64,000 bases of DNA, taken from Buxus sempervirens. Lineage: Eukaryota; Streptophyta; Magnoliopsida; Buxales; Buxaceae. Where the stretch lies: positions 56,465,915 to 56,529,914 of the forward strand of contig OX387183.1 in assembly GCA_947561395.2 (NCBI GenBank), written 5' to 3'. The notes under the pieces were generated by a model. That model made no database searches, was not told where the DNA came from, and saw only the letters and a program-made list of their open reading frames with translations. The translations under genes were made by a program, and so were the position numbers. This document shows, piece after piece, positions 10,360-60,469 of the stretch. Positions within the stretch are counted from its first letter, which is position 1; each line of letters opens with the position of its first letter.

Positions 10360-12246
10360 TCAGTGGGACCGCCGACCTCGCTGACGCGGAGAAGAGGACG
10401 ACGAAGTGCTTCCGGAAACAGTCGTCCCGTAAAGCAAGTCCGACAGGTAATTGTCCAGATCGTCGGGGGCAAACTTGATCAAAACATCCAAATTCCTTTC
10501 TCTCCTCAAAGTTACCCGATACTTGTCGTAGAAAACCCGATATGCCGGCACGAGTTTCCTGGCGATGGACATTTTAATCTCGTCCCGGAGCTTTCCGTCC
10601 GGTACGACCCAGGAACTCTGCTTCCGATACGCTTGTTCGAATTCCGAGTTGAATCTTCTGAAGCACTCCTTCGCCTCCTCGACCGAAATCATGGCCCTCG
10701 GATTTCCCGGCAACGTCGCGTAGACCTTGCTCCAACCCATTCGCTCGTAGTTCACTGCGTACTGTTTCAACTTAAGTTCGTGCTTCGATATCCAATCGTC
10801 GCCGAGGAGGGACAGGAGATTGGACGAACGGACCTTCTCGATCACGTACTGGAGATTGTTCGCCAGGAAAAGATAAGACAAGGAGACATCTTTGTACAGC
10901 TCGGCCTTGACGTCGAGCTTGCAGAGGAGAACGAGTACGATCCAAGCAATTTGGACGGAAATGGGCGACGTCATATCGTCTTCGGAGCTCAGACTCGGTA
11001 AGTAAGATTCCGGCAGCGGGGCTTGCACCGGCGAGGGCCAATCTACAATAATATCGGAGAGAATTCCTCTGTAATCGCCGAGAAAGACTATGTAATTCAT
11101 GACGTATCCGGTCAGAGGATGGAGTCCGCCGCCCGGAATGGGAGATTTCGACGAGTCCTTCTGAATTGCCGATTCGAAGTCCGATAGCGTCGTCCGCACC
11201 GCCTCACCGAGTCTCAGGAGTGAGGTGAGTGCTTGTGATCTTACCGTGATTGTTGATTCAAGGGCGAAGATTGATTCGATCTCCTGCCAGAGGCCGGAGA
11301 TGGCCTCGTACAGGTCGAGTATACGGAACATCTTCTCTGGAGATTTCTTGGTCTTCGAGACAGATTCGGGGAATGAAAAGAGAATGAGAGCTCCTTCTTT
11401 TGAGATCTCCGAGAAAACAGATTCGCTGATTGACGGCGAGGAGGAAAAGACGTGGTCACAAAGAATCCTCTCGCCGTAGAAGAGCGTCTTGACGGCGACC
11501 TTCACGGCGTTCAGCCAATATTTGATCTTGAGCTCGAGAACTTCCCAATCCATTTTCTGAATCTTAGAAGAACTCCACCGCTCAACTCCAAGGCGATAGA
11601 TGCCTTCGTCGACGATCGACTTTCTGATAATTTTGTAGATCTTGACGCACTCTTTACCATAACCGGACGAAATCATACAATCAGCAATATATTTGAGGTC
11701 CGACATGGCCTGGGACGACACTTGCTCAACTTCAGAGATAGATTCACCGGCCTCCTGAATTTCGTCTTCCGATCCGGCAGCATCTTCGTAACTCGAAACG
11801 CTCGATCTCGCAGACGTGACGGACGATCGAAGCGAGACAGATTCAGGATCCAGATGATCCCGATTGGCGGAGAGAATCTGATAGAATTCTTTCTCGAGCC
11901 TTTTCATAGCGGTCTGCATCAAGTTCTGAGCGCGAATGAGCTTCTCGGAGCTCGAATTCTCAGAAACGAAGAAATGCATAGCTTTCTGTAGGTTCCTGAC
12001 GCATTTGATAAACTCGAAGGCTTCTCTTCGGCTTTCATGGAAGAGCGATGTGACCTTAGCATAGGTAGAACCATTGGGATCCCATTTAGTGATAATCGAG
12101 CTTGCGATTTCGAGATTTTCTTCCATCATCGATTCGGAGAAGGTGCGGAGGGGACTGGAAGGAGCGGATCGCAAGGGTGAAGGACATGAAGACGATGAGG
12201 TCTTGGAAGAAAAGGAGAAGATACTCCGCAGTCCTTTTCTCGGCAT
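10360..12246 (-). CDS. EXO70H: exocyst subunit EXO70, H-clade (copy 1)
   Basis: Subunit of the exocyst, which tethers secretory vesicles at the plasma membrane; plant EXO70s are greatly expanded and the H clade is linked to specialised wall deposition and defence. Intronless frame of 628 residues, typical of the clade. The N-terminus is Ser-rich (11-40); a helical region follows (about 45-250); the conserved C-terminal Exo70 domain runs about 230-605, with LHPLTxYVMNY (375-385), ERMGWSKVYA (501-510) and a final DLLYGT block. The C-terminal tail is Ser/Arg-rich. Residue 380 is Gly where copy 2 has Arg and where I remember Arg as the family norm. Start chosen at the only Met preceding the Ser-rich leader, shared by both copies. 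A TATA box lies at 12428-12435. Confidence 0.95.
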   Translation of the reverse strand: MPRKGLRSIFSFSSKTSSSSCPSPLRSAPSSPLRTFSESMMEENLEIASSIITKWDPNGSTYAKVTSLFHESRREAFEFIKCVRNLQKAMHFFVSENSSSEKLIRAQNLMQTAMKRLEKEFYQILSANRDHLDPESVSLRSSVTSARSSVSSYEDAAGSEDEIQEAGESISEVEQVSSQAMSDLKYIADCMISSGYGKECVKIYKIIRKSIVDEGIYRLGVERWSSSKIQKMDWEVLELKIKYWLNAVKVAVKTLFYGERILCDHVFSSSPSISESVFSEISKEGALILFSFPESVSKTKKSPEKMFRILDLYEAISGLWQEIESIFALESTITVRSQALTSLLRLGEAVRTTLSDFESAIQKDSSKSPIPGGGLHPLTGYVMNYIVFLGDYRGILSDIIVDWPSPVQAPLPESYLPSLSSEDDMTSPISVQIAWIVLVLLCKLDVKAELYKDVSLSYLFLANNLQYVIEKVRSSNLLSLLGDDWISKHELKLKQYAVNYERMGWSKVYATLPGNPRAMISVEEAKECFRRFNSEFEQAYRKQSSWVVPDGKLRDEIKMSIARKLVPAYRVFYDKYRVTLRRERNLDVLIKFAPDDLDNYLSDLLYGTTVSGSTSSSSSPRQRGRRSH

Positions 12247-12427
12247 TAAAATTTCTCAATCTGAGTTTCGGAATATAGGAAGAAAAATTCAGAAAATGCT
12301 TCTTCTTGCTGTTCTTCGTTTTCCTGTGATTCGGGGTGGGAGGAGGGAAGAAGAAAGCAACTTTGGGGTTTGTCTCTCTTGCTTTGGATCGATGCTTGAT
12401 GTTTAGGGAGCCCTCGGAGGGGTCGGG

Positions 12428-24540: not shown

Positions 24541-26427
24541 TCAGTGGGACCGCCGACCTCGCTGACGCGGAGAAGAGGACGACGAAGTGCTTCCGGAAAC
24601 AGTCGTCCCGTAAAGCAAGTCCGACAGGTCATTCTCCAGATCGTCAGGGGCAAACTTGATCAAAACATCAAAATTCCTCTCTCTCCTCAACGTTACCCGA
24701 TACTTGTCGTAGAAAACCCGATATGCCGGCACGAGTTTCCTGGCGATGGACATTTTAATCTCGTCCCGGAGCTTTTCGTCCGGTACGACCCAGGAACTCT
24801 GCTTCCGATACGTTTGTTCGAATTCCGAGTTGAATCTTCTGAAGCACTCCTTCGCCTCCTCGACCGAAATCATGGCCCTCGGATTTTCCGGCAACGTCGC
24901 GTAGACCTTGCTCCAACCCATTCGCTCGTAGTTCACTGCGTACTGTTTCAACTTAAGTTCGTGCTTCGATATCCAATCGTCGCCGAGGAGGGACCGGAGA
25001 TTGGACGAACGGACCTTCTCGATCACGTACTGGAGATTGTTCGCCAGGAAGAGATAAGACAAGGAGACATCTTTGTACAGCTCGGCCTTGACGTCGAGCT
25101 TGCAGAGGAGAACGAGTACGATCCAAGCAATTTGGACGGAAATGGGCGACGTCATATCGTCTTCGGAGCTCAGACTCGGTAAGTAAGATTCCGGCAGCGG
25201 GGCTTGCACCGGCGAGGGCCAATCTACAATAATATCGGAGAGAATTCCGCTGTAATCGCCGAGAAAGACTATGTAATTCATGACGTATCGGGTCAGAGGA
25301 TGGAGTCCGCCGCCCGGAATGGGAGATTTCGACGAGTCCTTCTGAATTGCCGATTCGAAGTCTGATAGCGTCGTCCGCACCGCCTCGCCGAGTCTTAGGA
25401 GTGAGGTGAGTGCTTGTGATCTGACCGTGATTGTTGATTCAAGGGCGAAGATTGATTCGATCTCCTGCCAGAGGCCGGAGATGGCCTCGTACAGGTCGAG
25501 GATACGGAACATCTTCTCTTGAGATTTCTTGGTCTTCGAGACAGATTCGGGGAACGAGAAGAGAATGAGAGCTCCTTCTTTTGAGATCTCCGAGAAAACA
25601 GATTCGCTGATTGACGGCGAGGAGGAAAAGACGTGGTCACAGAGAATCCTCTCGCCGTAAAAGAGCGTCTTGACGGCAACCTTCACGGCGTTCAGCCAAT
25701 ATTTGATCTTGAGCTCGAGAACTTCCCAATCCATTTTCTGAATCTTAGAAGAACTCCACCGCTCAACTCCAAGACGATAGATGCCTTCGTCGACGATCGA
25801 CTTTCTGGTAATTTTGTAGATCTTGACGCACTCTTTACCATAACCGGACGAAATCATACAATCCGCAATATATTTGAGGTCCGACATGGCCTGGGACGAC
25901 ACTTGCTCAACGTCAGAGATAGATTCACCGGCCTCCTGAATTTCGTCTTCCGATGCGGCATCATCTTCGAAACTCGAAACGCTCGATCTCGCAGACGTGG
26001 CGGACGATCGAACCGAGACAGATTCAGGATCCAGATGATCCCTATTGGCGGAGAGAATCTGATAGAATTCTTTCTCGAGCCTTTTCATAGCGGTCTGCAT
26101 CAAGTTCTTAGCGCGAATGAGCTTCTCGGAGCTCGAATTCTCAGTAACAAAGAAATGCATAGCTTTCTGTAGGTTCCTGACGCATTTGATAAACTCAAAG
26201 GCTTCTCTTCGGCTTTCATGGAAGAGCGAAGTGACCTTAGCATAGGTAGAACCATTGGGATCCCATTTAGTGATAATCGAGCTTGCGATTTCGAGATTTT
26301 CTTCCATCATCGATTCGGAGAAGGTGCGGAGGGGACTGGAAGGAGCGGATCGCAAGGGTGAAGGACATGAAGACGATGAGGTCTTCGAAGAAAAGGAGAA
26401 GATACTCCGGAGTCCTTTTCTCGGCAT
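24541..26427 (-). CDS. EXO70H: exocyst subunit EXO70, H-clade (copy 2)
   Basis: Tandem duplicate of copy 1: 628 residues, same start and stop, 19 amino-acid differences by my count. Differences cluster in the flexible region (residues 139-160) and the extreme C-terminus (596-600), while the domain core is nearly unchanged. The LHPLTRYVMNY motif keeps Arg380. Copy 2 has S392 for R, R478 for L, E514 for G and D600 for Y relative to copy 1. The frame is intact and intronless. The proximal promoter including the TATA box (26604-26611) is conserved, but a 2.65-kb transposon starts 376 bp before the start codon, so distal promoter elements shared with copy 1 are displaced. Confidence 0.95.
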   Translation of the reverse strand: MPRKGLRSIFSFSSKTSSSSCPSPLRSAPSSPLRTFSESMMEENLEIASSIITKWDPNGSTYAKVTSLFHESRREAFEFIKCVRNLQKAMHFFVTENSSSEKLIRAKNLMQTAMKRLEKEFYQILSANRDHLDPESVSVRSSATSARSSVSSFEDDAASEDEIQEAGESISDVEQVSSQAMSDLKYIADCMISSGYGKECVKIYKITRKSIVDEGIYRLGVERWSSSKIQKMDWEVLELKIKYWLNAVKVAVKTLFYGERILCDHVFSSSPSISESVFSEISKEGALILFSFPESVSKTKKSQEKMFRILDLYEAISGLWQEIESIFALESTITVRSQALTSLLRLGEAVRTTLSDFESAIQKDSSKSPIPGGGLHPLTRYVMNYIVFLGDYSGILSDIIVDWPSPVQAPLPESYLPSLSSEDDMTSPISVQIAWIVLVLLCKLDVKAELYKDVSLSYLFLANNLQYVIEKVRSSNLRSLLGDDWISKHELKLKQYAVNYERMGWSKVYATLPENPRAMISVEEAKECFRRFNSEFEQTYRKQSSWVVPDEKLRDEIKMSIARKLVPAYRVFYDKYRVTLRRERNFDVLIKFAPDDLENDLSDLLYGTTVSGSTSSSSSPRQRGRRSH

Positions 26428-26603
26428 TAAAATTTCTCAATCTGAGTTTCGGAATATAGGAAGAAAATTTCAGAAAATGCTTCTTCTTGCTGTTCTTCGT
26501 TTTCCTGTGATTCGGGGTGGGAGGAGGGAAGAAGAAAGCAACTTTGGGGTTTGTCTCTTTTGGATCGATGCTTGATGTTTTGGGAGCCGTCGGAGGGGTC
26601 GGG

Positions 26604-37280: not shown

Positions 37281-38120
37281 TATTTTTTTTTTTGATGGTG
37301 TAGTAAGAACATAGACTCCCTTTGCTTGTTGAGAAATTGCTAGCTGGTGTCTTCCACTAAAGGTGATCTTCTTTCAAAAATTGCAAGATTGCGATACCTA
37401 TTAGGAACTGCACCTGATCCACACATCCGGAATTTTTTATGACAAGTCTGCTTCATTACAACTGAAGTGAGTAATCACTTTCATCACTCTCTATTATTAC
37501 GGCCGGGTCACTTCATGGACTGAGTCTCATTGTTGATATTCCTTCACATTTTTTGTTTTAAATTGCTCATTAATTGTGCCTGCCATTTTCCTTTGGCGAG
37601 ATCCACAAATTCAAGTAGTGGGGGTTTCAGAAATTTAAATCACAAAGACTTTTAAAAGATGGTACGTATTTTTAATTTATTCTAAGCCTTTAATTTAAAG
37701 CGTTCATATGGCCGCGAGGTATCATGAATTCGTGTTTGAAACGTCTTTTCTCTTTTCTTTTGTTTGTCATGACGGATTTCTACGTTGGGGTCGACGCAAG
37801 AAAACTAGCAAAATGGCAAGTCTGTGTCGGCTGAAAAGGATATGTTGTTTGAACTTTGAACCTGTTAGACAATAACGGTTTTTAAGAATTTTTCAAGAAT
37901 TGATTAATAATTAGTTTGAACGTATACCTAGCCAGTAATATACCAGAGTGAAATAGACCGATGGATATGGCCTCAATAGTAGGCCCTACACTCCAAAATA
38001 CATCCCAGCCGGTGATATATATCACGATACCACCAAAATTTGGAACCAGAGGAAATGCAATTGCCTAGCTAGTATTTGTGTGTGGGGGTACCTAGCTATT
38101 TACATATATACACATACTAG

Positions 38121-48406: not shown

Positions 48407-48628
48407 GGGGTTTGACATCCTTTTTTTCTTGGGAAGCATTTTTTGAAGCTGTTTGCTTGGGATAAGATCTGGGTTGAGTTTTCTTCAAGTCGGCAATCCG
48501 CCATGAATTCACACTAAGCGATCAGAGTTCCCTCCATCTCCTGCCTCCCCAGAGTCTGAAATCATTAGGAGTGTTCTCTCTTGTGTGGTAACCTGCCCTA
48601 AACTAGCCTCCCTTCTCTTTAATTAAAC

Positions 48629-49444
48629 ATGGTATTGCCTTCAACCTTACCCATGGAAGACATCACTCAAAGCCTCAAAGACATGCTCATTCCCCCAAGA
48701 GCCAATACCATCTTTAAACCAACCAAAGAAGATATCCAGAGACTAAATCACCATTGGAACTCGCTTGTAATTCTAGAATGTTTTGGTGAGGACCTCCAAT
48801 TAAATTCCCTCAAGAACATTTTGAACTGTCTGTGGAAAACCATAAAAGTCTCCAGGGTGAGCAAGGTGGGACCGAAGCGCTTTCTGGTGGCTCTCGGCGA
48901 CAAAGAAGAAAGAGACAAAATACTTAAAGGAAGGCCATGGATTTTAAACAATATAGTGACGCTTATGGAGCCTATCGGTGAGGAGGTTCAGGCCAGTCAA
49001 TTTGTCTTCAAAAATGTTATCATTTGGATGCAGATCCAGAACCTACCGAGGAAGTTCCAGGATGCAATTATCATGAGGGGTCTGTTTAATATGTTTGGAG
49101 TATCTTTGGAGGAAGAAATACCGGAGGAAGGTGGAGACCCCCCACCGGTAGCCGCTAAAGTCTCCCTGCCACTTCTCAACCCGATCCCATCTGGAGTTTT
49201 TTTTTATATGCCCAACGAGGAGAAAATATGGCTTGTGTTTAAGTTTGAATGCCTTCTGATGCATTGTGTTTCTTGTGGGGTGATTGGCCACACTTTACTA
49301 AACTGTCAAAAGCCGTTCAAGACCATCGAGGGGGGTAGTTTGTTTGAGGCGCGTATGTATTCCGAGCCTCTCACCATGCCGATGGTTCGGAGAAGAAATC
49401 CGTTGATCGGCAATAGTGGGAAAGATGATGAGTCGGAGAGATGA
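48629..49444 (+). pseudogene. LINE ORF1: DUF4283 and zinc-knuckle protein
   Basis: 271-residue open frame. A DUF4283 domain (about 40-155, with WNSLVILECFG and a GRPWILNN block) is followed by a CCHC knuckle: Cys213, Cys216, His221, Cys226 (CVSCGVIGHTLLNC). It would bind LINE RNA. The frame stops at 49442-49444, but coding-like sequence continues in other frames to about 50030, so ORF1 is truncated by a mutation. Confidence 0.85.
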
Positions 49445-50041
49445 ATCGGAGACTTGAGTCGACTCATCCCTGAGTCTACCGCCGAGGTATCAAATAGAGA
49501 GGCTGATGGAAACTGAAAAGACAACCTCCAGTCAAAGACAGGATTTGGCTCAGTGGAAAGATTTGGAGGCTACGGGTCGGGAGCAGCAAAGTGGCTCCGG
49601 TATGACTAGCGGGTCCACCCATAACAGTAACATTTTTCAATTGGACATTGGGCAGGTATTCAAAGGGCCTAACCTCCTTCTCTCAAGTTTTTTTGAATTT
49701 GGGGCCAGATGCCAGCCCAGTCAAACTTTGAACCCAACCTTCTCGCTTAAAGCCTCCCCTCATCTTACCTTGATCCAAAATAAAACCTTCTCCTCCCAAA
49801 AGAAGCCAAACCCAAAATCAACTCCCCATTACCTTCAGGCAGGTCCCTAATTAGAGAACACCCATCGATCTCCATGCAGACTCTGGGGGATGGCAGGACA
49901 GGGACGGGGCTCTCACTCCCCCAAGAAAGAGGAAAAAATCCCAAGTAACCATTTGTGAAAGCGATCCTTCAAATCAACAGAACATAACTAGTCGTTCAGA
50001 TATCTCTTGTGTTGCGGAAACCCAAACTCCTGTAAAAGAAT

Positions 50042-50882
50042 GAAGATTTTGGGGTGGAACTGTCGGGGATTGGCCATACCCCAACAATATTACATTTGAG
50101 TAATCTGATCCGCAAGCACAGGCCGAATATCGTTTTCTTTTCTAAGACTCTTCTAGAAGAGAGAAACTCGGAAAGAAAGATAAAAAAAAAATGGGGTATC
50201 GCAATTGCTGGTGGCAGGCAGCTACGGACAAAAAAGAAGGTTTTTGGGTTATGGGGGATAATTCCTGCCAAGTAACAATTGAAAGCAGTACTCAATGGTG
50301 TATCAACATCACAATTTCAAATAGAGAACAAGGAATGTTCAAGATGTCTTTCATTCATGCCAGTTCCAAGGCTCACATTCAAGCTAATCAATGGAAATAC
50401 CTGACAAGGAGGGTAGAACTCAGTACTTCCCCATGGACAGCGATGGGAGACTTCAAAATTGTGAGATTCAGCCATGAGAAGAGAGGGGGTAATCACATTA
50501 AGGTACACAAAGCTTCCCTTCTCCAAAATTTCATTAACTGTTGCGAATTGTTTGATCTACTTAGTAAAGGTCTAAGATATTCTTGGAATAAAGGGATCAA
50601 TAAAATAAGTGAGAAAATTGATAGAGTGCTTTGCAGTTCCGACTGGATAATCAAATTCCCCCATGCTACTCACTGGTAAGACCCTATAGTGGACTCTGAC
50701 CACACCCCCTATTCCTCATCACTAACCCCAAACATTCTAAGATTAGGAAAATCTTCAGATTTGAAAAATTTTGGGTAGAGGAACCAAACAGCAGAACTAT
50801 CATTGAACACTGTTGGAAGGGTACTAGTGGTAATTTTGATACAAAAACTAAATCCCTGAAAAATGAACTCATTCACTGCTAT
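50042..50882 (+). pseudogene. LINE ORF2: endonuclease part (broken)
   Basis: Starts MKILGWNCRGL, the hallmark N-terminus of plant LINE endonucleases, but hits a stop after 19 residues. A frameshifted continuation gives HLSNLIRKHRPNIVFFSKT. Further along, WTAMGDFK replaces the usual GDFN, losing a conserved Asn, and DRVLCSSDW marks the domain end. The coding sequence is then cut at 50882 by another element. Confidence 0.8.
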
Positions 50883-53677
50883 GCGCACCTGATTTCGCAC
50901 CGACGAGGCGCATGCAGGAATGCGTGCCTCGGGACATTCGGAGTCGCCACTGCCTGAGAGGTGCACGCAGACACCAGGGTACCTATTCAGTCTAATTTGA
51001 CTGGTCTACAGCTTTCTAAAGACTCTGGCTAAGTTCTCGGTTACGTTCGAGGAAGTCCGAAAACACCCCGACCCGCCCTGTCAATCTAACGGGTCCCTCA
51101 GGTCTCCCTGGTTCAAGTCAACTTAATCTCACCATTTCCTAATCCAACATGTATTTTGCTTGGTCTAGTGGGGATCACTGAAGGTGTAGATCCAATTTTA
51201 ATTAATTTTATCTTCTTTAGCTCCTTTTTTATTAAGTGGGTTGGGTATGGGCCCGTTGGAATCTGAGCTGGGATTGAGCCCATGGCCCAATCTGGGTTAT
51301 TGGGTAACCCTTATTGGATTTAGTTGTTTTGGTTTTGAATTAATTTAAACATGCAAGTTAATTAAGTTGGTTAAAGCTTTTGGGGCCCAATGGGCTTGGG
51401 ATGGGCCCACGAGCAATTAACCAGATGGCCTAGGGCCCATTTATTGAAAATGGGCTTTAGTTTGGGCCGGATTGAATTTGGGCCCCGTTGGAAGGCCCAC
51501 GAAGCATTAGTGGGCCTAAAGGGGCCCAAGGTCTCAAAACGGGTTTGAGTTGACCCAAAAACCCAAATGGTTCAGCTTACATCAAATTGGCTCGAATTGG
51601 GTCCAATCGGGTCAAAGAAAATGGATTTTTAATTAACCGCAGAACTTGACCGCATATGCAATGAGGTCTGGGCACAACCGCATTTGCTCTGCGGTTCAGA
51701 TCTGACCGTATATATAATGCGGTCAAGCCAAAACCACACTAAGTATGCAGTTCAACCTGACTTTCGAAAATGGCCGAAACGACCAATGGGTTCGGCTCAT
51801 CCTTCCTCCAGTGGTCCTTGCGACCTGCCTTGAGCTTCCAAACACACCTACAGGAGCTTTATATAATCTACTTAGCCAAAAACTTTCAGTTTTACCAAAC
51901 CATCCATATGCACTTTCAACCCACCAATAAGTAAGCAATGAACAAGCACAAGAAGCAAGTTAATATGAGATATCATGTGTTTATAATAAAAACTAGTTAA
52001 GAACGAATCTAAAATATTGCATCATTTGGAGGAACTTTCCGTACACCAAATAGTTCCCCTAGGTTGCCTTCAATCGCAGATGGATGAAAATCAGAAAGCT
52101 ATACCTCGGCAGATCCTAGTAGGCGATGTACGTTGAACTTAAGTACAAGTCTCAAGCCAGGGGGTGTCTATCAACCTGTCTCAGTACTTCTAGAGTTCCT
52201 CAGGCAGCAGAGCCGATCATAAATGATCTTGTGATTGATTTAATTGAAGTGAGCATGTGTGTGCGTAATCAAATAAACGCATGTACAAGGAGGCATTCAC
52301 ACACAAACACATAAGATGACACCCACTTACCCTAGTTGAAAGGAAATAGGGCAAGAAGGTTAAGGGTACATAAGATTATCAAAGAGGACATTCCCCTCTT
52401 AAAGAGTGAGCAAACCAACGTAAGAAGGGTTAGTTTAAGAGTGCTTTAACAAGACTCTTACTTATGTGGAACTCTCTTCTCCTCCCATTTCTTCGTACGG
52501 TAACATGAAAAAGTAACAAAAGTGGTGAGAAGTAGATAAGCAAAGATATATCCAAAGCAAATAAAAGAAAATCTGTTCAATAAGATTTGATTGGAATATA
52601 TACCAATTACAAAGCTAATAGGAACCTCACCTTGCTATTACCTTCTCTATTGGAAGTGTTTTAGTCCTCTGGAAGATGCGGACAGCACTTCGGAGCTTTT
52701 CCTTGGTTTCAAAGACAGCTTCTCGTGTGTTTTGTGTGTAAAACTGATGAAAAGAGAAGCGAAGAAAACCAGGGGTATTTTGGGTATTAGAATAGGGTCT
52801 GGGTGAGTGGAGGAGAGTTTTAGGGAGGTTGCAGGTCTTCAAATGGACAAAGTAACGATAGGGAGAAGAAGCTCTCTAAACAATGAGTTGCTGAGGCCTA
52901 TTTATAGGCAAAAATTCCGTGACCGCACTTATAGTGCGATCAGGCCAAAACCACAATTTGAATGCGGTTTAGCTTTGACCGCATTTCAAATGCGATCGCG
53001 TTTAAAACGTGTGCAAATCTCGCGCGATCGCCAACTGTCGCCAGCTAGGGACAGCTGGCGATATGGATAAGAACGTGACCACATTATATGTGGGGTCATG
53101 ACTCGACCGCACATATAGTGCGGTTACGCACGTTTTAAAATGGCGGAATTCAAACCACTCTACAATTTGTTTTAATTTTGGATTTTTATCCTATTTTTCT
53201 TTTTGTTTTTGATTTTTTTTAATTATGTAAATCAAGATATTTTCAGAAAATTATTATTTTAATCCTGATTTTTATTTGTTTTGTCATTTTCTGCTTTTTC
53301 GCCACACGGGCAGTTTTTCTGAAACTTTGAATTGCCATAACTTTTTCATATGATGTCCTATTTTAGCAAACTTGGTGGCGTTGGAATCAGCTCGGAATTC
53401 CCTATCCACTAAGTTAAAGTTTGGCAACAAACTCGGGTTTTAGCAAAAAACCAATTTCTACTCTCCCTCAAGTTTGACCGACTCATAACTTCTTCATCCA
53501 GACTCCGATTTGAGCAAAGTCAGTTGCGTTGGAGTCGTGTAGGAATTTTCTATCCAATAGGAAGAAGTACGGTGGTCAATTTGCACCCAATTGAAAAAAT
53601 CAGTTTTTGGCCCCCTCAGGGTTTGACTGATTAGAATTTCATTTTCTGCACTTTTGGGGGTGCAAAAATCAGGTGTC
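50883..53677. mobile_element. 2.8-kb TIR element nested in LINE ORF2
   Basis: The ends pair as CACCTGATTTCGCACC (50886-50901) against the complement of GGTGCAAAAATCAGGTG (53660-53676). Removing it with one copy of the 4-bp flank CTAT (50879-50882, 53678-53681) rejoins the LINE as HCYN*SKHEVGNINKRV, matching the usual WSK..GNI motif with one stop. The interior lacks long frames; it has GGGCCC/TTGGG-rich parts (51240-51560) and recurring TGACCGCATAT/GTGCGGT motifs on both sides (51640-51730, 52910-53120). Superfamily unknown. A TGCACGCAGACACCAGGGTA stretch near the left end recalls retroelement leaders. Confidence 0.72.
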
Positions 53678-53681
53678 TATA

Positions 53682-56600
53682 ACTAGAGCAAGCATGAAGT
53701 TGGGAACATTAATAAGAGAGTAGAAGAGAAGTACAACGAGCTAAAGGAAATTCAAAAGAAACTACAGAGTTCTAAGTCCCAGGAGTTAATCTCTAAGGGG
53801 AAACAAGTGCAAAGAGAGTACCTAAAAGACCTTAGAGCCCAAGAGACTTATTGGTATCAAAAATCTAGAATTAAATGGTTGGAAGATGGTGACCTTAACA
53901 CCAAATTCTTCCATCTAACAACCATTAACAGGAGACAAACTAATAGAATCATCTCTATCAAGGATGAGAATTTAGAGGATATCCATGAGCCTAAAGAAAT
54001 AGAGAAAATCTTCATAGATTAGTTTTCCACTTTATACTCTGCCGAAAACAGAGAAAGGGACACTTCTATCCTCAATGTGGTAGACAATTGCATCTCTAAG
54101 GTGGAGAACCAAGGGTTAATGAGAGAGGTCACTAATGAGGAGATTAGGAATGCTATTAAAAATCTTGGCCTTCTTAAGAGCCCTGGCCCAAATGGCTTTC
54201 AAGGGCTCTTCTATCAAAACTATTGGGAGGTGGTGGGTGAAGATGTCACAAAGGTAGTGAGAGACTTCTTTTCTAATGGGTACATGGACAAAAAGCTAAA
54301 CCATACCTTCATTGTGCTTATTCCTAAGTCAGAAAACCCAATGAATTCAAGCCTATCAGCCTTTGCAATTTCATCTATAAAATCATATATAGGATTATGG
54401 TTGATAGATTGAGGCCTCTGATCTCTAGGATAATTTCCACATTCCAATCTGCTTTTGTCCCGGGTAGAAACATTCAAGAGAATATCCTTGCTGCCCAAGA
54501 ACTCTATCATACCATAAACAAAACAAAAAAAAAACAAGAAAGGGTTTTTTTGCTGCAAAAATGGACTTATCTAAGGCCTATAACGGGTTGGATTGGGATT
54601 TTATCAAGAAGACCTTTAAAGCATGTGGATTCTACAAGGGGTTCATTAATCTGATCATGATGTGCATAAACTCTGTATCTTATAGTGCCCTTATCAATGG
54701 AAAATCATGTGGGTTGATATCTCCTTCTAGGGGTATTAGACTAGGAGATCCTCTATCTCCCTACATCTTTATTATCACCCAACATGTTCTGTCTACCTCT
54801 CTGATTAAAGCTAAAAATTGCAACTTTATAAATGGAATTAAAGCCAACATTGTTGCTGATCCCATTAGCCACCTCTTGTATGCTGATGATCTCCTTATAT
54901 TTGGGAAAGCCACAAAACAAAATGTCATGAACTTCAAAACCATTATAGACATCTTCTGTGAGAGTGCTGGCCATAGTTTTAATCAAGAGAAGTCCGAACT
55001 ATATTTTAGCCCCAACATCAAAGGTAAGAATAAGGGGGACATGGCCAGAGAGCTTGGAATAAAACCAACTAGGAAGCCTAGAAAATACCTTGGAATCCCC
55101 ACCTTCCTCAAAAATCCAAAGATTCACAATTTTCAAGAAATCATTGAGAAATTTAACAAAAAAAATTGGTTGGATGGAAAGCTAGATTTTTAAATCAAGC
55201 TGGAAAAGTGACTCTCATAAATGCTTCCCTCTTAAGTACCTCCCAATTCCTCATGGGGTGTCTCAAACTCCCTTCCACCATCTCGGATCACATAGACAAG
55301 GAAGCTAGAACTTTTTTCTAGTCTAAGCCTGATAAAGAAAGAACCATTCACACTATATGCTGGGAAAAAATCTGTTTTCCTACTAGATGTGGGGGATTAA
55401 ACATAAAGAATAGTAGGAAATTTAACCAGGCTATGTTTGCCAAAGTAGCTTGGGGGATGTCCCAAAAGGAATCCAAAGTGTGGAGTAATCTCATGAGAGC
55501 TAAATACTGCAGAAATGAAGAGTTCTTAAAGGTTCCAATAAAGAGAACTGATTCCTGGTTATGGATACAAATATGCCAAAGCAGAGAGGTGATCAAGAAG
55601 GGTATGGGGTGGATAATAGCAAATGGTCGATCAATTGGGATAGGGGAGAGTGGCTGGAAACAGAACTTGGAGAGAGAGGAGATTATAAATGAGGAAATTC
55701 AGAATTTAAATAACCTAGGGGATTTAATAGACCAACAGCTTAGAACCTGGAACACCTGGAAAATTATAGAAGTTTGGAATCCCCTGGTGGTGCAAAAGAT
55801 CTTAGAGATTCCCATTAGTAAGATGGCTGACTCTGATAGACTCATTTGGAAAGGGACAGCTAAGGGCAGCTTCTCTGTGACCTCAGCATATCGTATGATA
55901 ACATATGGTGAAGAACAGCAGATGGATGCAGGTAAGTGGCTCAAGTTATGGCATCTTCCCTGCCCCCAGAAAATCAAATTCTTTATGTGGAAATTGCTGC
56001 AAGAAGGTACGCCAACCAATGAACTTCTCCATTCTAGATTAAATGTTCCTCTTGAATTATGTTCTTTGTGCAATCAAGATCAAGACTCAAATGCTCATTT
56101 GTTCCTTAAGTTTAGTTTCAACAGGGCTATATGGTTTGGCGCCATGGGTGGGTTGCTAGGGGAGCCTTCACATCCCCAAACATGCAAGGGATGGCTGTTC
56201 AAGGACCTCATGCAACCTCAGGACAAATACCTCAATGATTCTAATATCATCTCAACAGCTTGGGCGAACAGCTGCTAGGTGGTTTGGAATGCCAGGAACA
56301 AAATGATTTTTGAAAACATCAAACCTTCCTTACCAGAAAATATTAACTTCATGTCTGTATTATAGGAGGACTCAAGGAGATTGAACAAAGAAGACCAGTT
56401 GGGGATGTTGAAGAAGGCCGAGGACCTCTACATCAGGTGGGCAAAACCAAGTGAGGGCTGAATCAAAATCAATGTAGACGGAGCAACCCAAGGGAGCCCC
56501 GGTCAAGCGGCAATTGCATGTATAGTGAGGAACAGTGATGGAGTCTGCATTGGAGCCATAGCATCAAGGTTAGGAATCACAGACTCACTAATGGCGGAAA

Positions 56601-56956
56601 CAATGGCAGTGCTTGAGGGTCTCCGAATGGCAGCACATCTCAATTTTAACAAAGTCATTATTGAAGGCGATTGCAAATCTCTAATAGAAATTCTTGCTCA
56701 AAAGTCTGACCCCCCATGGAAGATTACAACCCAAGTTGAAAAAATCTACCTCTTGTCCAACTCTCTTGAAGACATCAGATTCAGAGCAGTGTTTAGGGAG
56801 GCAAACTGTGTGGCGGATAGTCTGGCGAACTATGCTACTTCGAACTCTTCTTGTTTTTGGTTGAGGAAACTCCCTCTCCTTATTTCTCAATGTGTTTGGG
56901 ATGACTTTATGGGCCGAACAAGACCCAAAACAATCCCCAATTCAAACTCTGTTTAA
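53682..56956 (+). pseudogene. LINE ORF2: reverse transcriptase, zf-RVT and RNase H (broken)
   Basis: Reading across frames: WLEDGDLNTKFFH (53875), PGPNGFQGLFYQNYW (54180), FIVLIPK, then a frameshift, FQSAFVPGRNIQENILAAQE (54440), another frameshift, MDLSKAYNGLDWDF (54561, Asn where Asp is usual), GLISPSRGIRLGDPLSPYIF, the catalytic LLYADDLLIF (about 54877-54906), GLNIKNSRKFNQA (55390), the zf-RVT region with CSLCNQDQDSNAHLF (56061) and an RNase H fold (VDGATQGSPGQAA, MAETMAVLEGL, EGDCKSLIE, ANCVADSLANYA). Stops at 54020, 54410, 55191, 55319, 56276, 56364 and 56459 show that it is dead. Confidence 0.9.
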
Positions 56957-57929: not shown

Positions 57930-60469
57930 ATGAAACAGCTCCACAAGCAATCAAACGTGAATCACAGACGAGATGAAGAGAATCCAACATCAGTCCACCC
58001 ATCTGCTTATTCATCCAAAACCCTAAAACAACCGAGGTCCCTTCCCAATTCTATTAATTACCTTCTCAAGGAGCAAAGGCTTCTCTTCATTCTCGCCGGC
58101 GTTTTAATCGCTTCTACCTTCTTCATCCTCCAGCCCATCTTATCCAATCTCGGCCCCTCCGAAACCCAATCTGTAATGCCCAGAATGATCCCAGTTGGCG
58201 TTACAAGTCACAAACGGGTTTCGAATCCGTATAGGAGATCGGAGAATTACGGGGAGGACAATTACGGAAGAGTTCCGGCGGGGATTGGGAAGCGGCGGTT
58301 GAGAATTGTGGTGACTGGTGGGGCTGGGTTCGTCGGGAGTCATCTTGTTGATAAGCTCTTGGGAATTGGAAACGATGTCATCGTGATCGATAATTTCTTT
58401 ACTGGAAGGAAAGAAAATGTGATGCACCATTTTGGGAATACAAGGTTTGAGCTTATTCGGCATGATGTGGTTGAGCCGATTCTTTTAGAGGTGGATCAGA
58501 TTTATCATTTGGCTTGTCCAGCTTCACCTGTTCATTACAAATACAATCCGATCAAGACCATCATATCCTTCTCAAATGTTGCTGTCTGTGGACTATTTTC
58601 TGTTCTTTCCTTGGATTTTATTCCCTTTGACAATTTTTTCAATCTTTTGGGATCTTGACTGTGAGTGATTACAAGACAAATGTTATGGGTACCCTCAACA
58701 TGTTGGGACTGGCCAAGAGAATAGGAGCGCGGTTTTTGCTCACAAGTACTAGTGAGGTTTATGGGGATCCTCTTGAACACCCACAGAAGGAGACATATTG
58801 GGGGAACGTGAATCCAATTGGTGAGCTTCAACTTATAATTCTGTCCATATGTTTGCGATCTTTGTTTATGAATTTTTGCCCAAACCTTTGAATGATTGAG
58901 AGTCTATAGGGGTGAGAAGCTGTTATGACGAAGGAAAGCGCACGGCTGAAACTTTAACAATGGATTACCATCGAGGTGCAGATGTTGAGGTAATTGAATA
59001 ACGGAATCTAATATTTCAATTGAAAATTTCTTTAGAAGAAAAATATGTATACGGCATATTATATGTTAGTGAAAAAGATGCAGAGCAGGGATTTTGAATT
59101 CTCTTCTATTTTTTATTTGAGAAGGTAAGCTTGTATGTTAGGATTTGATGTTCTTTATTTTGTAAGAATGAAGCACTGAGCTTAAAAAAATGTAAGAGCT
59201 TGGCGATACCTATGATCAGTTTTTAGTTTCCTGTAAGCATGTTCACTCTTTATCAGGTGCTTATTAGCTGATTCACTGAAATAACTACTACTGAATTCTT
59301 TGTTTACAGGTGCGTATTGCACGCATTTTCAATACATATGGACCCCGTATGTGTATAGATGATGGACGGGTGGTCAGCAATTTTGTTGCTCAGGTTTTTA
59401 TCTCCCAGTATCTGTTCCTGGGTTTATGCTTTAATAACTCACTGAATTAATTAAATCATGATATTTTTCAAATTCTGTTATGGAGATGATCTTGTAACTG
59501 CTTTACCATTGTTTTTGCAGGCCATCCGTAAACAACCATTGACTGTATATGGTGATGGAAAACAAACACGGAGCTTCCAATATGTCTCTGACTTGGTATT
59601 TTACAGATTATCCACCTTCATCATTTTATGTGTATCACCTCATTCTTTGAGACTGTTAAGTTACTTTTTTTGTCATACATTTTCTGTATATATGTATCTT
59701 TCTCTTTAGGGCATCAACTCTAGTATTTAGTTTATAGATATGCACCCTCAAGCATGATAGGATATCTTGCTTTTCATCTGTAGCTGTGACTATGAGCAAA
59801 GTATTTGAAGGGCATCATCAAGTTCAGAGCTCTGAACTAACCAATTTTTTCAGAACCAAACTGGCCGGATGATCAATCAGGAAAACCAGGAACCGGCTTC
59901 TTAGATGGATTTCCAAATGCCAAGTTTTGACTATGCGGGTTTTCAAATTTTAATGATTCCATTTATTGTATAAATTTTGCTCATTTTGTGTCATAAGATA
60001 AGAGGACATCACATCCTTGTTGAAACTTACAAAGTTATATGAAAGAGGACTCGGTATCTCTCATTTCAGGTTGATGGACTTGTGGCATTAATGGAAGCTG
60101 AACACATTGGGCCTTTCAACCTGGGTAATCCAGGGGAGTTCACCATGTTAGAGCTTGCAGAGGTCTGTCTTCACCTCTGTGCAGGTCCACCTATCTGCAA
60201 TTTTTTTTTTTTTTTTTTCTGATTTGAAAATTTAATTGGCATAACAAAATCCCTGAACACAGGTTGTTAAAGAAACAATTGATTCTAGTGCAACCATTGA
60301 ATTCAAGTCAAATACCGCTGATGATCCACATAAAAGGAAACCAGATATCAGCAAAGCAAAGGAGCTGCTGAACTGGGAGCCAAAGATCTCTCTGAGGGAA
60401 GGGTTGCCTCTAATGGTGACTGATTTCCAGAAACGCATCTTGAGCGAAGACGAAGGAAAAGGGCTCTAA
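57930..60469 (+). CDS. UXS: UDP-glucuronate decarboxylase (UDP-xylose synthase), membrane-anchored
   Basis: Converts UDP-glucuronate to UDP-xylose with bound NAD+, feeding xylan, xyloglucan and glycoprotein synthesis; the anchored form acts in the Golgi lumen. Exons: 57930-58562, 58673-58820, 58910-58989, 59310-59393, 59521-59595, 60070-60162, 60263-60469; sum 1320 nt gives 439 residues (UXS1/UXS2-like length). A cytosolic tail (1-50, basic) precedes a single transmembrane helix (51-71, [17 protein letters not shown]), giving type II topology. The Rossmann motif is [10 protein letters not shown] (129-138); the catalytic set is TSTSEVYG (235-242) with YxxxK Tyr266-Lys270. GEFTMLEL and [10 protein letters not shown] are family signatures. 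Introns 2-6 are GT-AG, while intron 1 has AT-AC ends. The gene looks fully functional. Confidence 0.95.
58563..58672 (+). other. probable U12-type AT-AC intron (UXS intron 1)
   Basis: The 110-nt intron begins ATATCCTTCT, the exact U12 5' splice-site consensus, and ends GATTAC. TCTTGACT (58653-58660) resembles the U12 branch site TCCTTRAC, with its A at 58658, 14 nt from the 3' end. Splicing here restores [14 protein letters not shown] in frame as in other UXS proteins. No GT donor nearby gives that join. Confidence 0.85.

Follow-up and report, generated by a model that had tools for sequence, protein, structure and literature searches.

A probable U12-type AT-AC intron in a predicted UDP-xylose synthase gene of Buxus sempervirens

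The window analyzed here, a 64-kb stretch of the Buxus sempervirens genome that looks plant-like in its genes and in the style of its introns, carries on its plus strand a complete gene of seven exons (57930-60469, Table 1). Once joined, the exons add up to 1320 nt that are open from the ATG to the stop codon and encode a protein of 439 aa. This product aligned without gaps to UXS1 (PDB 2b69) over 314 residues (query 118-431 on chain 22-335, E 6.6e-136) and also matched the UXS1 structures 4gll, 4m55 and 4lk3, all four being presumably the human enzyme. The alignment running gapless across the first intron junction was displayed for 2b69 and 4gll and concerns the catalytic part of the protein; the solved constructs are devoid of the N-terminal part. 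When the protein was compared with NCBIfam, none of the best 25 of 27 families was above the cut-off, and those at the top were dehydratases and epimerases. The translation contains GGAGFVG and YDEGK, that is, the GxxGxxG and YxxxK motifs by which UXS proteins are recognized in the available text of PMC12787360. By its predicted product, the gene is identified as coding for a UDP-glucuronic acid decarboxylase, or UDP-xylose synthase (UXS).

The exon-intron structure could be compared with the one printed for PtUXS1 of Populus tomentosa (accessible part of PMC3629030). The poplar gene also has six coding-region introns and its exons 3 to 7 measure 80, 84, 75, 93 and 207 nt, exactly as in Buxus, while exon 2 (145 nt, against 148 in the Buxus gene) and exon 1 (609 nt, against 633) differ. 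Intron 1 of PtUXS1 appears with 135 nt in the nucleotide-diversity table of the same paper, where PtUXS1 is placed in class II together with PtUXS4, AtUXS1 and OsUXS1/4. Since the lengths of exons 3 to 7 are those of a gene whose class includes AtUXS1, the membrane-type UXS1 class is the most likely one for the Buxus gene, and a hydrophobic N-terminal stretch, read by eye, also suggests that it is probably of the membrane type. Tobacco has two UXS groups, and six introns is as well the number reported for one of them (available text of PMC10631120).

Pieces of a non-LTR (LINE-like) retroelement, with DUF4283, reverse transcriptase and RNase-H-like (RVT_3) segments in more than one frame, are found upstream of UXS. 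About 0.8 kb away on the other side, and convergent with UXS, lies the C-terminal part of a gene for SF3B3 (SF3b130), with an E value of 7.8e-68 to the SF3B3 chain of 5o9z over 165 residues. The SF3b subunit gene mentioned in the preliminary description of this DNA is thus real. A functional link between both genes was considered and rejected, as SF3B3 is on the other strand and convergent, and adjacency by itself is uninformative. Elsewhere in the window there are two single-exon Exo70 ORFs of 631 aa each, located 14 kb apart and so alike by eye that they probably come from a recent tandem duplication, and a single-exon ORF of the FAE1/CUT1 type (3-ketoacyl-CoA synthase-like).

Table 1. Location of the UXS exons, of the proposed intron with its signals, and of neighboring features in the 64-kb window.
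Feature	Position	Strand	Remarks
UXS exon 1, coding part	57930..58562	+	633 nt; hydrophobic N-terminal stretch (by eye), GGAGFVG, ends NPIKTI
AT-AC intron, proposed U12-type	58563..58672	+	110 nt, phase 0
5' splice site ATATCCTTCT	58563..58572	+	full match to the consensus ATATCCTTY
Possible cryptic GT-AG intron, in frame	58578..58675	+	ISFSN would replace K
Branch-site candidate GATCTTGAC	58651..58659	+	A at 58658; 6/9 to TTCCTTRAY
UXS exon 2	58673..58820	+	148 nt, KTNVMGTLN...NPI
UXS exon 3	58910..58989	+	80 nt, YDEGK (YxxxK) motif
UXS exon 4	59310..59393	+	84 nt
UXS exon 5	59521..59595	+	75 nt
UXS exon 6	60070..60162	+	93 nt
UXS exon 7	60263..60469	+	207 nt including stop codon
SF3B3 (SF3b130) gene, C-terminal part	62742-61251	minus	165 residues matched
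Last intron of SF3B3	62238-61386	minus	GT-AG, 853 nt
Non-LTR (LINE-like) retroelement pieces	48623-56956	+	upstream of UXS
Exo70 ORF	24541-26436	minus	single exon
Exo70 ORF	10360-12255	minus	single exon
FAE1/CUT1-type ORF	1109-2509	minus	single exon

The first coding intron of UXS had been described as an AT-AC intron at 58563-58672, and these coordinates were reproduced to the base. It starts with ATATCCTTCTCA and finishes with GATTAC (terminal segment GATCTTGACTGTGAGTGATTAC), so that its terminal dinucleotides are AT (5') and AC (3'), as in U12-type AT-AC introns. Were its 110 nt retained, the frame would shift and an in-frame TGA would be met within the intron itself. The remaining five UXS introns are all GT-AG. 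It had also been said to be the only intron with other than GT-AG ends; this is true among the seven that we checked (the six of UXS and the last one of SF3B3). Both exon 1 and the intron end in C, and a join shifted one base to the left would give an identical mRNA; AT-AC and CA-TA ends are therefore inseparable from the mRNA alone, while a GT-AG join at this site would give a different mRNA from either.

We enumerated the GT-AG, GC-AG and AT-AC joins that combine a donor located between 58443 and 58622 with an acceptor located between 58622 and 58761. In-frame joins without stops amounted to 93 (27 GT-AG, 21 GC-AG and 45 AT-AC). The highest score against UXS1 (548) belonged to the join of 58562 to 58673, which restores NPIKTI-KTNVMG with no gap, so the claim that the AT-AC join recovers the family sequence is confirmed. 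Next came two other AT-AC joins, 58560-58672 (535) and 58565-58659 (533), and the best of the GT-AG joins, 58578-58675 (529).

The consensus of the 5' splice site in U12-type AT-AC introns is ATATCCTTY. In the Buxus intron the octamer is perfect and coincides precisely with the junction imposed by the protein. As a mere motif, ATATCCTT was found at 4 places on both strands of the window against a mean of 3.5 in 60 shuffles; that is, by itself it is at chance level, and its weight comes from its location at the required junction, its expected frequency at one fixed position being 2.7e-5. The other matches, in a number expected by chance, are at 37843 and 31830 on the minus strand and at 54482 on the plus strand. 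A combined scan for ATATCCTT, a branch site of at least 7/9 and a final AC gave 0 cases in the real window and a mean of 1.6 in the shuffles, with at least one in 37 of the 60. A motif search alone would hence not single out this intron, and the combined scan is useless as evidence because the cut of at least 7/9 excludes the intron itself, which has 6/9.

Branch sites of U12 introns resemble TTCCTTRAY and are located about 10-16 nt before the intron end. The branch-like TCTTGAC that had been noticed 14 nt before the end is indeed there (58653-58659), and the last intron base lies 14 nt beyond A58658. With a rough matrix the nonamer GATCTTGAC scored 4.8 bits, a value attained in about 5% of the shuffled intron ends (998 of 20000), and the best candidates in the five GT-AG introns of UXS scored 4.4, 1.5, 1.0, -1.6 and -4.8 bits. 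A better match (7/9), TTCCTTGGA, is 58 nt from the intron end, and among the five best nonamers of the intron at least three others have the same 6/9. In the predicted duplexes with the branch-pairing region of the U12 snRNA of the same genome, the candidate had -4.4 kcal/mol and the consensus -9.0 kcal/mol; within the intron, that region was predicted to pair most strongly with the 5' end (-10.4) and near base 40 (-8.2), not with the branch candidate. Judged from these motifs, the branch site appears mediocre and adds little, and it is the donor that carries most of the case for the U12 class. In U12-type introns the 3' end is not preceded by a marked pyrimidine tract. Here 6 of the 13 bases preceding the 3' end are pyrimidines, a figure that does not discriminate, as two of the GT-AG introns of UXS have 6 and 7.

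The genome has at least part of the machinery needed. Our search of the same assembly (676.5 Mb in 247 contigs, the window being in contig 3) detected a U12 snRNA gene with 95.2 bits in Rfam against a gathering score of 53, covering model positions 1-151 of 151, and with GAGUAAGGAAAA in its branch-pairing region. This is to be read as at least one gene, 43 of the 50324 first-look candidates having been scored; a match was obtained in 0 of 14 control genomes. Within the 64-kb window Rfam gave 0 matches at gathering score.

The intron shares with the U12-type AT-AC introns of plants its termini, the 5' splice-site octamer and the position of the branch site, in a genome with a U12 snRNA gene, and differs in having a branch site of 6/9 to the consensus and in being in phase 0, the less common phase. 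With the junction, the perfect octamer, the branch position and the snRNA gene in its favor, the assignment made in the preliminary description is well supported, and we consider it very probable, on these sequence grounds, that the segment 58563-58672, as first coding intron of this probably membrane-type UXS gene, belongs to the AT-AC subtype of U12-type introns. U11, and then U6atac, would pair with ATATCCTT, while the U12 snRNA would pair with TCTTGAC leaving A58658 bulged as the nucleophile of the lariat; the minor spliceosome would then join 58562 to 58673. Unspliced mRNA, shifted in frame and with the in-frame TGA, would presumably yield no enzyme.

The main contender is a GT-AG intron at 58578-58675 removed by the major spliceosome, which would place ISFSN instead of K between NPIKTI and TNVMG. 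This join is in frame and open. Besides, using the AG at 58674-58675 as acceptor gives an exon 2 of 145 nt, precisely the length printed for PtUXS1, and according to the accessible part of PMC3629030 every poplar UXS intron starts with GT and ends with AG. Yet the join scored 529 against 548, it adds residues where the alignment to UXS1 has no gap, its donor (AAT/GTTGCT) looks poor as judged from the sequence, and the presence of a perfect ATATCCTT right where the family sequence is joined would become a coincidence. We regard it as very unlikely for Buxus. As for poplar, compared here by printed lengths only, either there is a GT-AG intron with its edge one codon off, or the annotation was fitted to the rule. 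Both joins might also coexist as a two-way switch, an improbable reading taken as a whole, in which an active minor spliceosome, served by AT-AC-specific helpers of the DROL1/CENATAC type, would make the AT-AC join and a working UXS, and, when it runs short, the major spliceosome would use 58578-58675 and produce an altered enzyme, the frame being kept and ISFSN for K falling inside the conserved stretch. By the same improbable reading, the GT-AG form would be annotated or real in some lineages, perhaps in poplar. An arm of the minor spliceosome specific for AT-AC introns has been described, DROL1 in Arabidopsis and CENATAC in human cells (available text of PMC11039992 and PMC8280824), and the loss of CENATAC in human cells leads to retention of A-type minor introns or to the use of alternative major sites (PMC8280824). 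Because such a loss lets alternative major sites act, the GT-AG pair at 58578-58675 deserves attention.

It could also be argued that the AT-AC intron is real and removed by the major spliceosome. AT-AC introns of the major spliceosome have donors similar to ATAAGT, and the Buxus donor is instead the U12 motif ATATCCTT. According to the available text of PMC6310983, AT-AC introns spliced by the U2 spliceosome do exist and the terminal dinucleotides are not sufficient to assign the class, which together with the mediocre branch site speaks for this option. Against it, in Arabidopsis AT-AC ends are found in 0.01% of the U2-type introns and in 26% of the U12-type ones (accessible part of PMC7367187), and we hold it for most unlikely. 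Even less credible, practically negligible, is that this is a decayed or non-functional gene copy with a junction devoid of meaning. The LINE-like element just upstream could suggest so, but the seven joined exons form an uninterrupted frame between ATG and stop codon, their product has both motifs and matches UXS1 along 314 residues, and GT-AG ends are found in each of the five remaining introns.

One database holds 269 U12 introns of Arabidopsis (PMC7367187), about 70 of which would be AT-AC by simple arithmetic from the share given above. The proportion of AT-AC within the U12 class is 23% in soybean, 13% in maize and 22% in rice, according to the accessible part of the same paper. The assertion that AT-AC introns are rarer still is right for introns overall, where they make up 0.06% of plant splice sites (available text of PMC6310983), but within the U12 class of Arabidopsis they reach 26%. 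U12 introns tend to avoid phase 0 (accessible parts of PMC7367187 and PMC10639083), a tendency that was not significant in several species, soybean, rice and maize among them (PMC7367187). In the available text of the literature searched we found no UXS gene named as host of a U12 intron, and among the titles listed there was none linking UXS with minor splicing. UXS is not mentioned in the available text of PMC4892727, PMC3422263, PMC2426677, PMC10639083 and PMC6310983; neither is U12 in that of PMC10631120, nor AT-AC in that of PMC3629030. AT-AC being a regular fraction of the U12 introns of plants, such an intron in UXS is an ordinary event, and what we describe is real but ordinary plant gene anatomy.

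Regarding function, most likely this is a minor intron with no special role, whose removal is needed to produce the enzyme. The suggestion, also made in the preliminary description, that minor splicing could limit the supply of UDP-xylose is unsupported. Cytosolic UXS dominates xylan synthesis (available text of PMC10631120), so a bottleneck in the membrane-type isoform alone would be a weak control of the total supply, and the CENATAC paper itself mentions existing doubts about what increased retention at individual genes means (accessible part of PMC8280824); both points weaken the idea. If the assignment is correct, one well-placed AT-AC minor intron is added to a cell-wall sugar gene, and mis-splicing of this UXS would be expected in plants whose minor spliceosome is defective. 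The statement that the UXS introns of poplar are all GT-AG may then hide a minor intron forced into GT-AG by an annotation rule, or reflect a genuine switch from one intron class to another.
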